64,000 nt of DNA from Bradyrhizobium sp. AZCC 1719 (GTDB taxonomy: Bacteria; Pseudomonadota; Alphaproteobacteria; Rhizobiales; Xanthobacteraceae). Within the stretch, counting starts at the first letter, position 1. Every line of letters begins with the position of its first letter. Below the pieces are notes generated by a model, which worked only from the letters and a program-made list of their open reading frames with translations, had not been told where the DNA came from and made no database searches. Position numbers and translations under genes: made by a program. Shown here one piece after another: positions 2,960 through 16,610 of this stretch. The stretch lies in contig NZ_JAZHRU010000001.1 in assembly GCF_036924525.1 (NCBI RefSeq), forward strand, positions 4,679,001-4,743,000, written 5' to 3'.

Positions 2960-4624
2960 ATGGGCAATGCGCTCGTCATTCGCCGCAATACCCAACTGGC
3001 AAAAGCCCAGAAGGCGCTTCGCGCGGCGCAATACGTTCGAATGTCCACCGATCTTCAGCGCTATTCGACCCAGAACCAGGCGGCCGCCATCGCGGCATAC
3101 GCGCAGCAACGAAACCTTACTATCGTTCGGACTTATGTCGACGAAGGGCGCAGCGGAGTGAGGATCAACCGGCGGCCGGCCCTCGCCGAACTTATCAAGG
3201 ATGTTCAATCAGGAAACACGGACTTTGAGCACGTTCTGGTTTACGACGTCAGCCGATGGGGACGCTTCCAGGATGTCGATGAGAGCGCGCATTATGAGTT
3301 TGTCTGCAAGCGAAGCGGCGTCAAGGTTGCCTATTGCGCTGAACAATTCGAAAACGACGGAAGCCTTCTGTCGAGCATCTTAAAGAACATCAAGCGCGTA
3401 ATGGCGGCTGAGTTCAGCCGGGAGCTTGGCGTCAAGGTGCACGCCGGCCACTGCCAAATAGCGGGCCTTGGCTATCGCGTTGGTGGCTCGCCCACGTTCG
3501 GGCTCGGCAGGGAGATGGTCGATGAGGAGCAACGCTCGAAAGGTCGGCTGGCGAAGGGCGAGTACAAGGCCCTGAAAACGGACCGTGTGCGGCTTCGGCT
3601 CGGTTCTGACGAAAAGATCGCGATAGTCAGATGGATATTCCAGCAGTTCGTCGTGGAGCGAAAGACCGACGTTGAAATCGCACGGCAGCTCAATAGGGCG
3701 AATATCCCCAATCACCATGGGCGTCCTTGGTCCTACCTCATGGTCCACTACATTCTCAAGAACGAGAACTATATCGGAAACATCGTTTACAACCGCACCT
3801 CGCGGCGCCTTGGACAGAAGCAGGTCAACAACCCTGATCACCTGTGGATTCGGACCTCATCGGTGGTCGCTCCAGTGGTTGATCAAGACCTCTTCGCGCG
3901 CGCCCAAAAAATCATGACCGAGCGGTATATCTCAATCCCGGAAGACCAGATGCTGCGCAGGCTCCGTCTCACGCTCGGTCGCAAAGGAAAGCTTAGCTCC
4001 AGTATCATCAAAAACGCGCCCGGACTTCCTTCTCCCGCATGTTACGTCAAGCATTTCGGCTCGATAAGAAACGCCTACAAGCTCATCGGCTATGAAGGTT
4101 CGCGCGACTGCAGATGGTTCGACGTGCGAGATCACTGGACCGAGGTTTTGTCAAAGCTCGCAACACAGGTTGCGGAGGCGCTAAGGACCGATCTCGGGAT
4201 TCGCTTGAATCCAATCGGCGATGGTACGGGGCTGGCACGGCACGGACGCAGAAAGATCATCTCGTTTCAGGTGGTCCGGAAAATGGCGAAGAGAACTCCA
4301 AACCACGTTGCGCTATGGAGAGCCCACCTGAGGAAGGAGCGATCCGAGCTGTGTGTTTACTTGCGACTGAACGACTCCAACGAGGTGGTTCAAGACTATG
4401 TATTGTTGGCCTCAGCGGACACTACGACGCCTTACCTGACGCTGTCAGATGGCCTTTTAGCTCGCCACCAGGCCGTTCGCGTCGACACCGTTAGCGAACT
4501 TATTCGGGACATCAAAGCGAGATTTATATCGGCCAACCGTGTCTCGCCAACCAGGCCAAGACGAAAGAACAAGCGAAAGAAACCAAGCCGGCCCAAAACC
4601 AGGAACGTCCGCGCGCGGCACTAA
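2960..4624 (+). CDS. Large serine recombinase (element integrase)
   Basis: The product is a 554-residue serine-family site-specific recombinase. The N-terminal resolvase domain (about residues 18-170) contains AAQYVRMSTDLQRYSTQNQ, with Ser29 as the expected nucleophile, and the YDVSRWGRF segment with catalytic arginines. The 'recombinase' DNA-binding domain follows (about 190-320; GYRVGGSPTFGLGR, then RQLNRANIPNHHGRPWS). No CxxC zinc-ribbon cysteines are visible in the C-terminal third; instead there is a basic region ending in a Lys/Arg-rich tail. It is the first gene of the element and its likely integrase. Pairing a serine recombinase with an AlpA-type excisionase (11981) is unusual, since the characterised RdfS works with a tyrosine integrase. 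Att sites could not be identified. Confidence 0.88.
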   Translation: MGNALVIRRNTQLAKAQKALRAAQYVRMSTDLQRYSTQNQAAAIAAYAQQRNLTIVRTYVDEGRSGVRINRRPALAELIKDVQSGNTDFEHVLVYDVSRWGRFQDVDESAHYEFVCKRSGVKVAYCAEQFENDGSLLSSILKNIKRVMAAEFSRELGVKVHAGHCQIAGLGYRVGGSPTFGLGREMVDEEQRSKGRLAKGEYKALKTDRVRLRLGSDEKIAIVRWIFQQFVVERKTDVEIARQLNRANIPNHHGRPWSYLMVHYILKNENYIGNIVYNRTSRRLGQKQVNNPDHLWIRTSSVVAPVVDQDLFARAQKIMTERYISIPEDQMLRRLRLTLGRKGKLSSSIIKNAPGLPSPACYVKHFGSIRNAYKLIGYEGSRDCRWFDVRDHWTEVLSKLATQVAEALRTDLGIRLNPIGDGTGLARHGRRKIISFQVVRKMAKRTPNHVALWRAHLRKERSELCVYLRLNDSNEVVQDYVLLASADTTTPYLTLSDGLLARHQAVRVDTVSELIRDIKARFISANRVSPTRPRRKNKRKKPSRPKTRNVRARH

Positions 4625-10209: not shown

Positions 10210-10461
10210 TCACTTTTTCTTGGAGGATTTGGACCGTTCGCTGCGCGATTCATCATCTGGTAGGACAAGATCGATATGGCTCACGCCCAAGGTCGTTGCG
10301 AGTTCAAACAATGTAACGATGGTCGGATTGCGACGTCCGTTTTCGAGACCGCTGATGTATTGTTGGGTAAAGCCGGATGCTTCCGCAAACTTCTCCTGCG
10401 TGAAGCCCTTCTGCTTCCGCAGTCGCCCGAAGTTTCGGCCAACCAACTTGCGCATATCCAT
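10210..10461 (-). CDS. XRE-family repressor, QseC-like
   Basis: The 83-residue protein is almost entirely one XRE/Cro-type helix-turn-helix domain: NFGRLRKQKGFTQEKFAEAS, then TQQYISGLENGRRNPTIVTL, and the final helix LFELATTLGVSHIDLV, ending in a Lys/Ser-rich tail. Size and layout fit the controller-like regulators of restriction systems and of ICEs. It is divergent from the DUF2285 protein at 10650, the same arrangement as qseC-qseM of ICEMlSymR7A, where QseC binds operators between the two genes. Two perfect inverted repeats lie at its start codon and just upstream. I infer that it autoregulates and sets the level of the DUF2285 protein. The family is certain; the QseC role is inferred from position. 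Confidence 0.85.
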   Translation of the reverse strand: MDMRKLVGRNFGRLRKQKGFTQEKFAEASGFTQQYISGLENGRRNPTIVTLFELATTLGVSHIDLVLPDDESRSERSKSSKKK

Positions 10462-10649: not shown

Positions 10650-10946
10650 ATGCCGTCACCCCCACTGGACCCTGATGTTGCGGACCTGGCACCGGATAGC
10701 CCCGTGCTGACGGCCTATGACGAGCAACATGTCGTCACCTATCTCCGGCTGTTGGATGCAGACGCTGAGAATGCCGACTGGCGCGAGGTGGCGCGCATCG
10801 TGCTTCACATCGATCCGGACCAGTATCCGGAGCGTGCGCGAACGGCCTTCGAGAGCCATCTGGCTCGCGCCAAATGGATGACAAGCCGTGGCTACGGCCA
10901 TTTGCTTCGCGGTGGTCCCGCCAAGGAGCCGGACAGGGACGTGTAG
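10650..10946 (+). CDS. Small DUF2285 protein, QseM-like antiactivator
   Basis: The 98-residue product carries a single DUF2285 domain (about residues 22-85: YDEQHVVTYLRLLDADAENA, WREVARIVL, SHLARAKWMTSRGYGHLLRG). Its pattern matches the C-terminal half of the split activator encoded at 11082-11850. In ICEMlSymR7A, QseM is a stand-alone DUF2285 protein that binds and blocks the activators TraR and FseA. Size, domain and divergence from an XRE gene fit that role here. The ATG is preceded by GAAGGAG at 4 bases. Divergent expression from the inverted-repeat region would place it under control of the XRE protein. Alternative: a DNA-binding protein in its own right. Confidence 0.75.
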   Translation: MPSPPLDPDVADLAPDSPVLTAYDEQHVVTYLRLLDADAENADWREVARIVLHIDPDQYPERARTAFESHLARAKWMTSRGYGHLLRGGPAKEPDRDV

Positions 10947-11081: not shown

Positions 11082-11850
11082 ATGCCGGAATTCGATTGGC
11101 GCTCGCCCGAGGCCTATTCAAGAGTGCAGAACGCCGACCTGACTGGTCTTGCCTGGGAATGCCTGCGTCGTAACCCAGAATACCGAAAGCACTATTGCTC
11201 GCTTCCGAATCCACTTAACGGCGCTCCGGCCGAATTCCGGAAGAAATGGGGCCTGACTTTTCGCGGCTGACCCGCAAAAAGCCTGTTACGAGCAGATTGT
11301 CTTTTGGGCGCCAGAGGTGCTGCCGACCGTTTTGTCGGTGAGCACTTCTTCGTCGCAAGCTTCTGCTCAACCCATCGATCTGGATCTGACAAGACTGTCG
11401 CCCGGCGAGCTGCGGCAGACCACGGATGGCTGGCATGCCGTGCTCCGCGTTGGTGACGCCACGCATCGCGTGTGGCTGAAGGAACTGCCTGCAGCCGGGG
11501 CGTCGCAAGCCATAGAGCTGCCACTGGACTCGTCGTTTGAACTCCGCGCCCAGGCTGCCCAATCGCTCTGGCGTACGCTGAGCGGCCGTTCTCCCTGTCG
11601 ACCGCTCGCTGACCATGCTCCACACCGACGTCAGCGGATGACCCTTGTCTTGCGTGCGCTGGATGGACGCAATGAGGGCAAAAACTATCGCGCGATCGCC
11701 GAAGGCCTCTTTGGCAAAAAGCGTATCCCCGAGCGCGCCTGGAAGACGCACGATCTGCGCAATCGTACGATCCGCCTCGTGCAGCGCGGCCTCGCCTTGA
11801 TGCGCGGCGGTTATCGCGAACTCTTGCGCGCAAGACGCAAGGACAAATAG
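11082..11850 (+). CDS. fseA: FseA-like activator encoded in two frames (+1 frameshift)
   Basis: The first frame (11082-11270) encodes 62 residues of the DUF6499 type (MPEFDWRSPEAYSRVQNADL ... EFRKKWGLTFRG, stop). The second frame, shifted +1 and open to 11850, continues TFAADPQKACYEQIVFWAPE and carries a DUF2285 domain at its end (TLVLRALDGRNEGKNYRAIA ... DLRNRTIRLVQRGLALMRGG). Joining them at 11261/11263 gives about 255 residues, the layout of FseA of ICEMlSymR7A. That protein is made by programmed +1 frameshifting from msi172/msi171 and activates rdfS transcription. The second frame has no well-placed start of its own. An rdfS-like operon follows directly, as expected. A disabling mutation rather than a programmed shift is the alternative, but both frames look fully conserved. 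Confidence 0.75.
11256..11270 (+). other. Candidate +1 ribosomal frameshift site
   Basis: The zero frame reads ACT TTT CGC GGC TGA. A peptidyl tRNA-Phe on UUU (11259-11261) can slip one base forward onto UUC (11260-11262), after which GCG GCT GAC leads into the downstream frame. The zero-frame stop lies only two codons later. The slip keeps perfect or better codon-anticodon pairing, which is why it is plausible. Confidence 0.6.
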
Positions 11851-11859
11851 GCCTCTTTC

Positions 11860-11882
11860 AGGGGTATCGAAAATTCACCCCT
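11860..11882. promoter_or_regulatory. Inverted repeat in the rdfS-like promoter region
   Basis: AGGGGT (11860-11865) and ACCCCT (11877-11882) lie between the activator gene and the AlpA-type gene. The position suits either a binding site for the activator at the rdfS promoter or a weak hairpin at the end of the activator transcript. Confidence 0.3.
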
Positions 11883-11980
11883 CGATCTTCGGCATCCCCC
11901 TGCGAGGGAATGCTCCTCCATGATCACCGCATTCACGCTGTCACCGCAGCGATAGCGCGATCCCTTCATGGAGCCCTCGA

Positions 11981-12262
11981 ATGCCCGATCCTATGGCCGG
12001 CCTGCCGCCACGCTTCCTCCGAACGCCGGAGGCTGCGCGATACCTCGGGCTGTCCGGTCGCACCTTGGAAAAGCACCGTACCTACGGCACTGGACCGACC
12101 TATCGGAAGATCGGTGGGCGCGTCGTCTATGCGCTTGATGATCTGAAGGCCTGGGCCGATCTCGGCGCCAAGACATCGACGTCCGACCCCGGGAAGGGGA
12201 CGGTACTGCCTGCGAAGAAGCAGCCAGCACTGCGCCCCTATGCCGGCCAGGTACGTCGCTGA
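11981..12262 (+). CDS. rdfS: AlpA-type HTH protein, RdfS-like excisionase
   Basis: The 93-residue protein has one winged-HTH / AlpA-like domain at residues 8-55: RFLRTPEAARYLGLSGRTLE, then YRKIGGRVVYALDDLKAWAD. The rest is a basic Pro/Lys-rich tail. In ICEMlSymR7A the matching protein RdfS is the recombination directionality factor that tips integrase toward excision. Its gene heads the operon rdfS ... traF ... rlxS, as seen here. The stop overlaps the repA start by one base (TGATG), so translation is likely coupled. Since this element's apparent integrase is a serine recombinase, the partner is uncertain and the protein could act mainly as a transcriptional regulator. Confidence 0.75.
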   Translation: MPDPMAGLPPRFLRTPEAARYLGLSGRTLEKHRTYGTGPTYRKIGGRVVYALDDLKAWADLGAKTSTSDPGKGTVLPAKKQPALRPYAGQVRR

Positions 12263-13143
12263 TGCGGCACAAATTACGATCCGAGCGCAGCCAGCTCGAG
12301 CTGTTCCGTGCCTTGCCCGGTGATCTGGCGCCGCGCGACGCCCAGGATTTGATGGCCTATCCATTCTTTTCGCTCGCCAAGTCAAAGCGGGTTGTGCCGA
12401 TCGATTTCCGGGCGGGTAACATTTCCATTCGGGTCGAACCGGTGCCGGAACATGGCATGGCGACGATCTGGGATGCTGACGTTCTGATCTGGGCAGCTTC
12501 GCAAATTGTCGAGGCGCGTGATGCCGGGCTGAAGACCTCGCGTCTGATGGCGGCAACCCCTTACGAAATTCTGACATTCGTTGGCCGCGGCACCAGCGTG
12601 CGCGACTACGATCGGCTCAAGGCGGGTCTCGATCGGTTGCAGTCGACCTCGGTGCTGACTTCGATCCGGCAACCGGCTGAACGGCGGCGGCATCGTTTCT
12701 CCTGGATCAACGAATGGAAGGAGACGGCCGACGCCAACGGGCGCCCAATGGGCCTCGAACTGATAGTGCCAGACTGGTTCTATGCCGGCGTTCGCGATGA
12801 CGCGCTCGTGCTGACGATCGACCGCGCCTATTTCGGTTTGACTGGCGGACTCGAGCGCTGGCTTTACCGGCTTGTCCGCAAGCACGGCGGTCGCCAGCAG
12901 GGCGGTTGGAGTTTTGACTTTCTGCATCTCCACGCCAAGTCCGGCAGTCTCTCGCCGCTCAAACATTTTGCCTTTGACCTGCGCGAGATCGTCCGGCGGC
13001 AGACCTTACCCGGCTACGAGCTCGTGATCACGCGCGACCCAAACGGCGTCGAACGTCTGAGCTTCGCGCCCCGTTGCACCGATCCGTTCGTGGAGCGGCT
13101 TCGCAAGCGAGGTCTCCCACTTCAGGCTGGAGAGAAGCTGTGA
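12262..13143 (+). CDS. repA: Replication initiator protein A (RPA family)
   Basis: The 293-residue product belongs to the 'replication initiator protein A' family of alphaproteobacterial plasmids and ICEs. Typical segments are LMAYPFFSLAKSKRVVPIDF near the N-terminus, WDADVLIWAASQIVEARDAG in the middle, and the winged-helix part YFGLTGGLERWLYRLVRKHG. It should bind iterons and open the origin so the excised circle can replicate. Three iteron-like repeats begin 6 bp after the stop codon. It overlaps the rdfS-like gene and precedes the DUF2840 gene. In relatives I recall a parA gene between repA and DUF2840; none is present in the 247-bp gap here. Confidence 0.88.
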   Translation: MRHKLRSERSQLELFRALPGDLAPRDAQDLMAYPFFSLAKSKRVVPIDFRAGNISIRVEPVPEHGMATIWDADVLIWAASQIVEARDAGLKTSRLMAATPYEILTFVGRGTSVRDYDRLKAGLDRLQSTSVLTSIRQPAERRRHRFSWINEWKETADANGRPMGLELIVPDWFYAGVRDDALVLTIDRAYFGLTGGLERWLYRLVRKHGGRQQGGWSFDFLHLHAKSGSLSPLKHFAFDLREIVRRQTLPGYELVITRDPNGVERLSFAPRCTDPFVERLRKRGLPLQAGEKL

Positions 13144-13390: not shown

Positions 13391-13855
13391 ATGAGCGATC
13401 TCACGCAGGTCGAGCTCGTCTGGCTGGAAAAGCGCATCGAGAACCGAATTCGTTTCGGTCGCGTGGCCGAGGAGCGAATTCTCGACCGGAATCGACGCGT
13501 TCTGTCGTTCGCGCCCGACAGCATTTTTGCGTTCGTGCGCTGGATGTCGAACGATTTTGGGACGATCGTTTCCCGCATCGATATCTTGCGAGCGGTAGCA
13601 GCGGGCCAACGCTGCTCGACTGTCCCCTATGTCAAGCCTGGCGGTGAGATTCTCTTGCGCCTGTCAGGTTGGCCAAAGGTGGAGCGCGTGTTGCAGTTGA
13701 TCGATGCCGTCGAAGCGCTCGGCATCGATCCCGCCGACGCCGCCCCCGACTATTGGCAACACGTCCACAACCGCCTGTCCGTCAACGAAACGCCGCGCGC
13801 CTACACAAAGTCACGCCACCAGGCTTGGCTGCATCGGCGGAGGGCCGGCCCGTGA
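13391..13855 (+). CDS. DUF2840 domain-containing protein
   Basis: The 154-residue protein matches DUF2840, a family found only in rhizobial and related conjugative elements between the replication/partition genes and traF. Clear family segments are LTQVELVWLEKRIENRIRFG, RVLSFAPDSIFAFVRWMSND, YGTIVSRIDILRAV-like sequence, and the end VHNRLSVNETPRAYTKSRHQ. Function is unknown; co-transcription with rdfS, traF and rlxS suggests a role in transfer. It ends in a GTGA overlap with traF, so translation is coupled. The ATG at 13391 fits the family start. Confidence 0.88.
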   Translation: MSDLTQVELVWLEKRIENRIRFGRVAEERILDRNRRVLSFAPDSIFAFVRWMSNDFGTIVSRIDILRAVAAGQRCSTVPYVKPGGEILLRLSGWPKVERVLQLIDAVEALGIDPADAAPDYWQHVHNRLSVNETPRAYTKSRHQAWLHRRRAGP

Positions 13856-14364
13856 CGACCCGCAACCGAACGCTCGGTTTGGCGATCGGCGCGGTTGCCA
13901 TTGTCGCCGGGACGATCTTCGCAAAGCTGGATCCGCTCTTGGTCTGGAATGCTTCCCACAGTGTGCCTGTTGGCCTGTATCGCGTTCGTCCGGCGGGCAG
14001 CCACTATGTCACCGAACTCGTCGCCGTTCGACCGCAGGAGCCGCTGGCAACCTATCTGAACCTGAATGGCTATCTGCCGAAAGGAGTTCCGATGCTTAAG
14101 CGCGTGCTGGCGCTTCCCGGACAAATGGTGTGCAGGAACGGGAGCAACATATCTGTCGATGGCATCGAGTCGGGGAAGGCGCGGGAGCGCGACAGCCGCG
14201 GCCGACCGTTGCCAGTGTGGCAGGGATGCGACCTCGTCGGAGAAGGCGAACTCTTCCTCATGAATTGGCAATCTGCGGAATCTTTCGACGGGCGCTACTT
14301 CGGAATGACACCGGCAACGGCTGTCATTGGTCGCGTACTTCCCGTTTGGATATGGCAAGATTGA
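13852..14364 (+). CDS. traF: TraF, conjugative S26 signal peptidase
   Basis: This 170-residue membrane-anchored S26 peptidase has one N-terminal transmembrane segment (TLGLAIGAVAIVAGTIFAKL). The serine box NASHSVPVGLYRV carries the nucleophile in SVPVG, the general base is the Lys in MLKRVLALPGQ, and the C-terminal box is FDGRYFGMTP. TraF-type peptidases cut and cyclise the TrbC pilin precursor, and trbC is present at 50850, far from traF but in the same element. The GTG start overlaps the stop of the DUF2840 gene by four bases. Confidence 0.9.
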   Translation: MTTRNRTLGLAIGAVAIVAGTIFAKLDPLLVWNASHSVPVGLYRVRPAGSHYVTELVAVRPQEPLATYLNLNGYLPKGVPMLKRVLALPGQMVCRNGSNISVDGIESGKARERDSRGRPLPVWQGCDLVGEGELFLMNWQSAESFDGRYFGMTPATAVIGRVLPVWIWQD

Positions 14365-14597: not shown

Positions 14598-14855
14598 GGT
14601 CGCGCACGCTGCAAACGAGCGGAATCGCATTGTGTCGAAGTGCTTCGCATTCTTGACGGGGAGTCGTTGGGAGCAGGGGCAGACCGACGACGGACGGCAA
14701 GGGAAAAGCGCCGCCTTCGGCCGGGCGCATGTGGTTGGTGCGGCTGAGGTTTTAAGAGGCATCCGGAATGATCAAGCCATCGCTCCATTCCAAATCGTCA
14801 GCGAAATCAACGCGGCGAGAGCCGTCGGCTTGTGCAAATTCCCGGTGAGGCCCTC

Positions 14856-16610
14856 GTGAGCCAGCACGACAATGATCTTCGTGTTCGCCCAGGCCGCATT
14901 CGTGACGGCGGACGTAGCCCCTCTCATCCGAAGAGCTTTGTTGGCCAGGTCATGCGAGCGGCCAAGAGGGCTGGGCATGTCGGCGACGGTTTCGGGCGCG
15001 GTAAGGGCGGCGCCAGCCGGTCGCGCTTCGGACGAGGCCGGCGTGCCGCGCTCTCTTTGTCCCTCCGCTCGACCTCGCGACGCGTAGTGATGAAGGCACG
15101 CGTGGTCCGTCATCGCGGCACGCGCTTTCGTTCGGCGCCGATGTCCAAGCACATGACCTATTTGAAGCGCGAGGGGGTGACCCGAGATGGCGCGGAAGCG
15201 CGGATGTTTGACGCGACGTCCGATGCGGCGGAGGAGCGCGGCTTTGCTGAGCGATGCGAGAACGACCGGCATCATTTTCGATTTATCATTTCGCCAGAGG
15301 ACGCCGCCGAGCTCGGCGATCTCCGCGCCTTCACGCGCGAGCTGATGTCCGACGTCGCGCGTGATCTCGGAACTAAACTGGACTGGATCGCGGTCGACCA
15401 CTGGAACACAGACAATCCGCATATTCATGTTCTGATCCGCGGCCGCGCGGAGGACGGCCAGGACCTTGTTATCAGCCGGGATTACATCAGCCGCGGGTTT
15501 CGGGATCGGGCCGCCGAGCGCGTTACGCTGGAGCTTGGCCCGCGCAGCGAGCGGGAAATCCGTTCTGCCCTGGAAAGGGAGGTTGAGGCCGAACGCTGGA
15601 CGAGCCTCGATCGGGCGTTGCGTATTGCGGTCGACGAGGGGGCCGGCGTGGCGGACCTTCGTCCCAGTGCATCAGGCGAAGACCTCGAACTCCGCCGCCT
15701 GATGGTCGGCCGGGCCGCCAAACTGGAACGCTTCGGTCTCGCCGAGCAGATTGCACCCGGCTGTTGGACCCTCAAACCCGGTATCGAGGACAAGCTGCGT
15801 GATCTCTCGATTCGCGGCGACATCATCAAAACGATGCATCGGGCAATGCGCGGCTTCGGGCGGGAGCCGGACGTATCTGGCTTTGCCCTGCACGGCGATG
15901 AGCCAGCGGATAGGGTGCTCGGCCGTCTAATCGAGCGCGGACTGCATGACGAACTGAAAGGTTCGGCCTATGCGATCGTCGACGGCATCGATGGAAGAAC
16001 GCATCACCTCAAGTTCTCCGATATCGAAATGACTGGCGATGCCGCGCCCGGCGCAATCGTGGAGGCGCGGAGTTACGACGATGCTCAGGGCCGCAAGCGG
16101 CTGTCGCTCGCGACCCGGTCCGATCTCAACATCGAAGCCCAGGTAATGGCTCCGGGCGCAACCTGGCTTGATCGGCAGTTGCTCGCGCGGGATGCGGTCG
16201 TGGCGAACGGCGGTTTCGGATCCGAAGTGCGCGAAGCCATGGACCGCAGGATTGGCCATCTCGCAGGCGAAGGTCTCGCGCGTCGCCAGGGAGCAAGGAT
16301 CATCTTTGCCCGCGATCTCCTCAATACCCTGAGACAACGGGAGCTTGATGCTGCGGTCGCAAGACTTTCGGCCGAGACAGGGTTACGCCACGGTCCTTCG
16401 TCGGAGGGCGAACGCATTGTGGGCATCTATCGTCGACGCGTAACACTGGCGTCAGGCCGGTTTGCCATAATTGACGATGGACTTGGGTTTCAACTCGTGC
16501 CGTGGCGGCCAGCCTTGGAGCAGTATCTCGATCGGCAGGTATCCGGCGTCGCGGCGAGAGGAGGTGCGGTGACCTGGAGTCTTGGAAGGAGGATCGGTCT
16601 CGGAATGTGA
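14856..16610 (+). CDS. rlxS: Relaxase, RlxS / VirD2-like with DUF3363
   Basis: This 584-residue relaxase would nick oriT, stay covalently bound to the 5' end and lead the strand into the recipient. The three-histidine metal site lies at residues 181-191 (DHWNTDNPHIHVL: His182, His189, His191). HHFRFIISPEDAAELGDLRA precedes it at 139-158, and a candidate catalytic Tyr is in HMTYLKREGVTR (102). The region after about residue 210 is the long DUF3363 part. The GTG at 14856 fits the usual N-terminus (MSQHDNDLRVRPGRI) and follows GGTGAGG. In known elements traG follows closely; here 30 kb of other DNA intervenes. Confidence 0.9.
   Translation: MSQHDNDLRVRPGRIRDGGRSPSHPKSFVGQVMRAAKRAGHVGDGFGRGKGGASRSRFGRGRRAALSLSLRSTSRRVVMKARVVRHRGTRFRSAPMSKHMTYLKREGVTRDGAEARMFDATSDAAEERGFAERCENDRHHFRFIISPEDAAELGDLRAFTRELMSDVARDLGTKLDWIAVDHWNTDNPHIHVLIRGRAEDGQDLVISRDYISRGFRDRAAERVTLELGPRSEREIRSALEREVEAERWTSLDRALRIAVDEGAGVADLRPSASGEDLELRRLMVGRAAKLERFGLAEQIAPGCWTLKPGIEDKLRDLSIRGDIIKTMHRAMRGFGREPDVSGFALHGDEPADRVLGRLIERGLHDELKGSAYAIVDGIDGRTHHLKFSDIEMTGDAAPGAIVEARSYDDAQGRKRLSLATRSDLNIEAQVMAPGATWLDRQLLARDAVVANGGFGSEVREAMDRRIGHLAGEGLARRQGARIIFARDLLNTLRQRELDAAVARLSAETGLRHGPSSEGERIVGIYRRRVTLASGRFAIIDDGLGFQLVPWRPALEQYLDRQVSGVAARGGAVTWSLGRRIGLGM

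Follow-up and report, generated by a model that had tools for sequence, protein, structure and literature searches.

A probable +1 frameshift at a UUU-C site in an FseA-type activator gene of Bradyrhizobium sp. AZCC 1719

In the integrative and conjugative element ICEMlSymR7A, a low-frequency +1 shift joins msi172 and msi171 to give FseA (PMC10359603). According to the consulted portions of the same source, about 61% of 4709 FseA homologues need such a shift, the arrangement is spread over alpha-, beta- and gamma-proteobacteria, a UGGGGG motif is noted, and in the FseA box a spacer of 15 or 16 bp separates two inverted hexamers. For Azorhizobium caulinodans, a frameshift has been stated to be absent, since both open reading frames have their own start and end codons; in Azorhizobium, neither half alone complements the loss of both (PMC9601964, consulted in part). 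Parts of PMC5009743, PMC8627217 and PMC9973854 were also consulted on what is already known and what is new.

The window, by which we mean the whole stretch of 64,000 nucleotides analyzed here, contains a new member of this published family, for which both the +1 frameshift and its wide conservation have been described before (Table 1). A preliminary description had placed a DUF6499-type frame ending at TGA 11268 ahead of a DUF2285 frame at +1, and this proved exact to the base. By direct reading, the 0 frame ends TGG GGC CTG ACT TTT CGC GGC TGA, with TTT at 11259-11261, C at 11262 and the stop at 11268-11270, while the +1 frame opens with GCG GCT GAC CCG; the TGA spans a codon boundary of the +1 frame, taking its T from GCT and its GA from the Asp codon GAC. 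Pfam assigns the N half to PF20109 (DUF6499, E 6.8e-20) and the C half in the +1 frame to PF10074 (DUF2285, E 9e-32), and the AWEFLRRN-type N-terminal motif of DUF6499 is present as AWECLRRN. When TTTC is read in silico as a single Phe, the frames join as WGLTF-AADPQK, just as proposed, yielding one stop-free protein of 255 residues. The closest named relatives are Bradyrhizobium valentinum LmjM3 (L032, 85%) and Bradyrhizobium sp. CSA112 (L033, 84%).

Table 1 Features of the fseA locus and its surroundings in the window.
Feature	Position	Strand	Remarks
Large serine recombinase (Resolvase + Recombinase domains)	2960-4624		among ten ORFs scanned
HTH_3 regulator, QseC-like candidate	10210..10461	-	divergent to qseM-like ORF; PF01381, E 1.7e-17
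DUF2285-only ORF, QseM-like antiactivator candidate	10650..10946	+	PF10074, E 4.3e-7
fseA 0-frame part, DUF6499 (Trans_reg_dom) ORF	11082..11270	+	ATG 11082; 62 aa; AWECLRRN motif
UGGGGC, weak Shine-Dalgarno-like stretch before slip codon	11247..11252	+	dG -4.7 kcal/mol; putative role
UUU-C slip site, putative (P-site UUU, +1 re-pairing with UUC)	11259..11262	+	sequence and homologue comparison
fseA +1-frame part, middle domain + DUF2285 (RovC_DNA-bd)	11263..11850	+	195 residues; TAG 11848-11850
FseA-box-like inverted repeat ATCGAA-N16-TTCGGC	11866..11893	+	after fseA, upstream of rdfS-like gene; exact match
rdfS-like HTH_17 gene, presumed FseA target	11981..12262	+	PF12728, E 3.4e-8
RPA	12262-13143	+	downstream transfer gene
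DUF2840	13391-13855	+	downstream transfer gene
S26 peptidase	13669-14364	+	downstream transfer gene
Relaxase with DUF3363	14832-16610	+	downstream transfer gene; DUF3363 well above Pfam cut-off; relaxase domain below, 21.6 of 24.6 bits

For comparison, 288 unique loci with the N-terminal domain were assembled. They are not a random sample, as 77 were chosen by similarity to the window, others were the best matches of genome searches, and further loci came from 120 chosen stretches and seven plasmid records. PF20109 itself was found in 22/41, 25/385, 86/397 and 43/398 genomes of four overlapping samples. The DUF2285 half lies at +1 in 220 loci and in the same frame (fused) in 48. The remaining 20 (C half not found in 13, in another ORF of the same frame in six, at +2 in one) were kept out of the split count. 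Homologues encoding both parts in a single frame had been named beforehand as evidence that would speak against a shift; they do exist, as the 48 fused loci show, but they belong mostly to other branches. In a tree of the C half only (149 rows, quick method), a main branch of 98 rows (SH-aLRT 96) contains 92 TTT-split and only four fused genes, one TGT and one ambiguous row, and the remaining fused rows, along with those having the slip codon at W+5, fall mostly into a mixed branch of 49 rows. Inspection by eye of the homologue from Bradyrhizobium sp. CCBAU 51765 (L034) revealed a one-base deletion at the W codon that fuses the frames, the slip site downstream being otherwise intact. A second homologue (L288) carries TTC at the slip place, and here too the frames are fused. 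That the split has been kept although a change of a single base can fuse the frames, as in these two cases, argues that the shift itself is selected.

It is conceivable, though improbable, that the halves act as two distinct proteins, of which the C half would be made from an internal start such as GTG 11317 and assemble with the N half in trans. DUF6499 and DUF2285 are reported to contact each other, and QseM to bind DUF6499 in trans (PMC10359603, consulted in part); two separate genes are claimed for Azorhizobium (PMC9601964, likewise), and database records such as L314 annotate two genes. Selection on the two frames points the other way. When the window is compared with L011, L032 and L033, the N half has an omega of 0.18-0.34 in its expected frame and the C half one of 0.15-0.19, with values of at least 0.83 in the unexpected frames. 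Over the first 18 codons of the +1 frame after the slip, all of which precede GTG 11317, the first +1 start codon of the window, omega drops to 0.017 as opposed to 2.2-3.1 in the remaining frames (window and its three closest relatives, i.e., four sequences and 54 nt). The same 18 codons gave 0.159, versus 1.27-1.33 in the remaining frames, in a sample of 40 loci carrying TGC at W+3. Furthermore, a W-x-P/A/G motif precedes the first +1 start codon in 150 of the 207 homologues with a TTT site; in the remaining 57, the motif either does not precede this codon or went undetected. Translation therefore appears to enter the +1 frame ahead of its first usual start codon, and selection on both halves together with that on the stretch before this codon renders internal initiation alone insufficient as an explanation. 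A pseudogene or a sequencing error of one extra base is very improbable and already largely refuted: several Bradyrhizobium copies (L035, L036, L059, L082, L095, L096, L099) indeed seem to have suffered additional frame breaks or stops and L034 became single-frame by an upstream deletion, but 220 of 288 unique loci share the +1 offset, and purifying selection acts on both frames.

The putative slip site was compared in all loci bearing a W-G/A/R motif, which left 20 of the 288 out of the junction table. Among the 215 split junctions of this table, 207 have TTT at W+4 and five have it at W+5, two have TGT at W+4, and one is ambiguous. As these junctions were not selected for TTT, 207/215 is an unbiased figure, and in combination with the selection on both frames it supports the proposed programmed +1 frameshift as far as sequences can. 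At other positions in such genes, TTT makes up a fraction of 0.27-0.32 of the Phe codons, and in fused homologues the Phe at the place of the slip codon is TTT in four of eight. The base following TTT is C in 196 of 207 and T in 11, and the A-site codon is CGC or CCC in 180 of the 207 sites, CGC in the window. It is hardly credible that transcriptional slippage on a T run, rather than ribosomal slippage, provides a joined message: the window does have four consecutive T (11258-11261), but in at least 174 of 215 split homologues the slip codon is preceded by a codon with A, C or G as its last base, and C mostly follows TTT, such that the run usually comprises three T and is too short for transcriptional slippage.

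Sequence preferences extend upstream of the slip codon. In codon tests for TTT, GGG and CGA, which drew on loci preselected for TTT at W+4, 77 of 106 representatives use GGG for the Gly of W-G (background 0.132) and 50 of 58 use CGA for an Arg preceding TTT (background 0.098), as compared with 9/40 (background 0.136, p 0.09) and 1/14, respectively, in fused genes. The junction in the window has neither codon at these places. Shine-Dalgarno-like pairing over the 12 nt around W-G-L has an average dG of -8.64 in the 97 split representatives that lack TGC at W+3, -5.64 in the 15 that have it and -5.99 in 28 fused representatives. Instead of the ribosome binding site-like UGGGGG of the published family, the window has UGGGGC at W-G-L with a dG of -4.7 kcal/mol, weaker than the fused-gene mean and far from the -9.6 calculated for UGGGGGUU in L006. 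The window thus seems to carry a minimal variant of the slip site. Fused genes have a signal at least as strong as that of the TGC group and of the window, which speaks against a general need for a Shine-Dalgarno-like stretch. The stop codon was rejected as a component of the signal: it lies 6 nt past TTT in 84 of the 207 sites, and the distance ranges from 6 to 708 nt. Of the two properties that an alignment of homologues was to check, conservation of the UUU-C site was found and conservation of the stop spacing was not. At one locus (L273, G496:C3:71839-71970), the slip site reads TTT TGA with the stop directly in the A site, resembling RF2. At four others (L176, L177, L268, L280), the 0 frame stays open for 483-708 nt beyond the slip codon, which implies a long unshifted product.

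A second, putative type of slip site exists within the genus. A DNA search with the junction of L014 gave matches in 45 of 265 genomes; the best 30 loci were fetched, and 24 of these were inspected along with five earlier loci. The N domain was present in 27 inspected rows, L006 and L332 representing the same place. The slip codon is TTT-C in 11 of these rows and TGT-C at W+4 in 16 (L315-L322, L324, L325, L327-L330, L334, L189). TGG AGG, making a perfect GGAGGU, lies just upstream in all 16 TGT rows and in two of the 11 TTT rows (L010, L323). A single 3.3-kb stretch, shared by seven genomes with two bases differing in one of them only, accounts for seven of the 16, which suggests recent spread. 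Pooled omega over +1 codons 1-22 was 0.156 for ten TGT loci, in nine of which the first +1 start codon follows codon 22; in L328 it is codon 18. The tree requires three changes between TGT and TTT (bootstrap 2-3) and places L326, which combines GGG with TTT, among the TGG AGG rows, so that a reversal or a recombination event may have occurred. Re-pairing of tRNA-Cys with GUC would not be expected after a +1 slip at UGU-C. A sublineage of the same genus that conserves two frames without UUU indicates that P-site re-pairing does not account for the family in full. We tentatively consider that the UGU-C sites may be a natural +1 frameshift without P-site re-pairing, driven mainly by the internal Shine-Dalgarno sequence GGAGGU, a proposal we hold with less than even confidence. 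If true, this would also account for the preference for G-rich stretches upstream of many UUU-C sites. A GTG created by the change from TTT to TGT was discarded as a candidate; it lies in the third frame, opens an ORF of 9 or 25 codons, and its conservation was judged by eye. A limited search of titles and abstract openings yielded no mention of UGU-C variants of fseA.

As the preliminary description noted, an rdfS-like operon lies directly downstream, the HTH_17 gene being followed by transfer genes. The order qseC/qseM-like genes, fseA, repeat, rdfS-like gene, RPA, DUF2840 and S26 peptidase resembles that of other FseA elements, and the ten ORFs scanned also include those for a ParB-HTH protein, DUF736, a TraG-type coupling protein, a TrbE/VirB-type ATPase and TrbL. 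The inverted repeat fits the published box upstream of rdfS in layout, the property that was compared. The search pattern was derived from the window itself; with one mismatch allowed, it gave two matches against 0.85 expected, a number reached by 25 of 100 shuffles, and support for the repeat thus comes from its position and its recurrence by eye. A similar layout with small changes was seen in 13 of 18 upstream regions viewed out of 159 extracted, and 41 of 314 loci contain an exact TCGAA-N15-17-TTCGG at some position. The QseM- and QseC-like genes near fseA were assigned by domain and layout only; the QseM-like ORF is the other place in this genome matching PF10074. The element also carries a large serine recombinase alongside the rdfS-like gene; factors of the rdfS kind have been tied to tyrosine recombinases (PMC11963761, consulted in part).

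Among the fetched loci, 181 of 220 with a split gene but only three of 48 with a fused gene contain a DUF2285-only ORF, counts that were obtained with short flanks, most loci measuring 3-4 kb. A profile seeded with qseM recovers the DUF2285 domain of just 12 of the 48 fused genes themselves. Profiles built from split or fused genes recover 48/48, the latter having been made from the same sequences, which renders this control partly circular. Six independent pairs on starred branches of the C-half tree gave, on average, the same direction in 1.7, the opposite in 0.5 and no difference in 3.8, and many split genes of the basal mixed branch have no DUF2285-only neighbor. Searches for PF10074 in 33 genomes carrying fused genes and 33 carrying split ones were judged by eye. 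As the independent pairs are not significant and nothing was shown beyond shared ancestry, a link between frameshift and QseM is no more than a lead.

Taken together, the locus very probably is an fseA of the msi172/msi171 kind, made by a +1 slip at UUU-C, activating rdfS and antagonized by the qseM-like protein. By analogy with the published work on ICEMlSymR7A, from which the slip and its low rate, FseA binding and the effect of QseM are taken, most ribosomes would stop at UGA 11268 and release the 62-residue DUF6499 protein. A minority would slip by +1 with UUU in the P site, tRNA-Phe (GAA) re-pairing with UUC 11260-11262, and would resume at GCG 11263 to complete the 255-residue FseA. FseA would then bind the inverted repeat and switch on rdfS and the following transfer genes, with the qseM-like protein acting as its antagonist. 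A translational gate on transfer, its presumed target repeat and an antiactivator candidate would thus stand side by side in a Bradyrhizobium-type element. The comparison suggests that the site needs UUU-C, or UGU-C plus a strong GGAGGU, and not a nearby stop, and it makes natural slip-site variants available for frameshift assays.

Among known systems, RF2 (prfB) shares the proposed +1 re-pairing in the P site and an upstream Shine-Dalgarno-like stretch, which is separated from the slip codon by 3 nt in prfB and by about 6 nt here. The A-site codon of the window is a sense codon (CGC), unlike that of RF2; among the rows inspected only L273 has a stop in this place. Fused FseA-like or RovC-type activators (48 of 288 loci) contain the same two domains, many with a W-G-L ... 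D-P junction, but in a single frame and with a DUF2285-only ORF in far fewer loci than their split counterparts. ICEMlSymR7A, compared by its published description, differs from the window in that the latter has its qseM-like gene directly upstream of fseA and a weak Shine-Dalgarno-like stretch. As regards quorum-sensing control by TraR/TraI, no match to the LuxI family (PF00765) was found in the window genome, a weak difference since the control matched nowhere. The shift site just after W-G-L, TTT-C at W+4 in the window, corresponds in position to the published one. FseA of ICEMlSymR7A and the gene described here are alike in the combination of DUF6499 with DUF2285 at +1, the rdfS-like gene behind, the layout of the inverted repeat, and the DUF2285-only QseM-like gene with a divergent HTH gene nearby.
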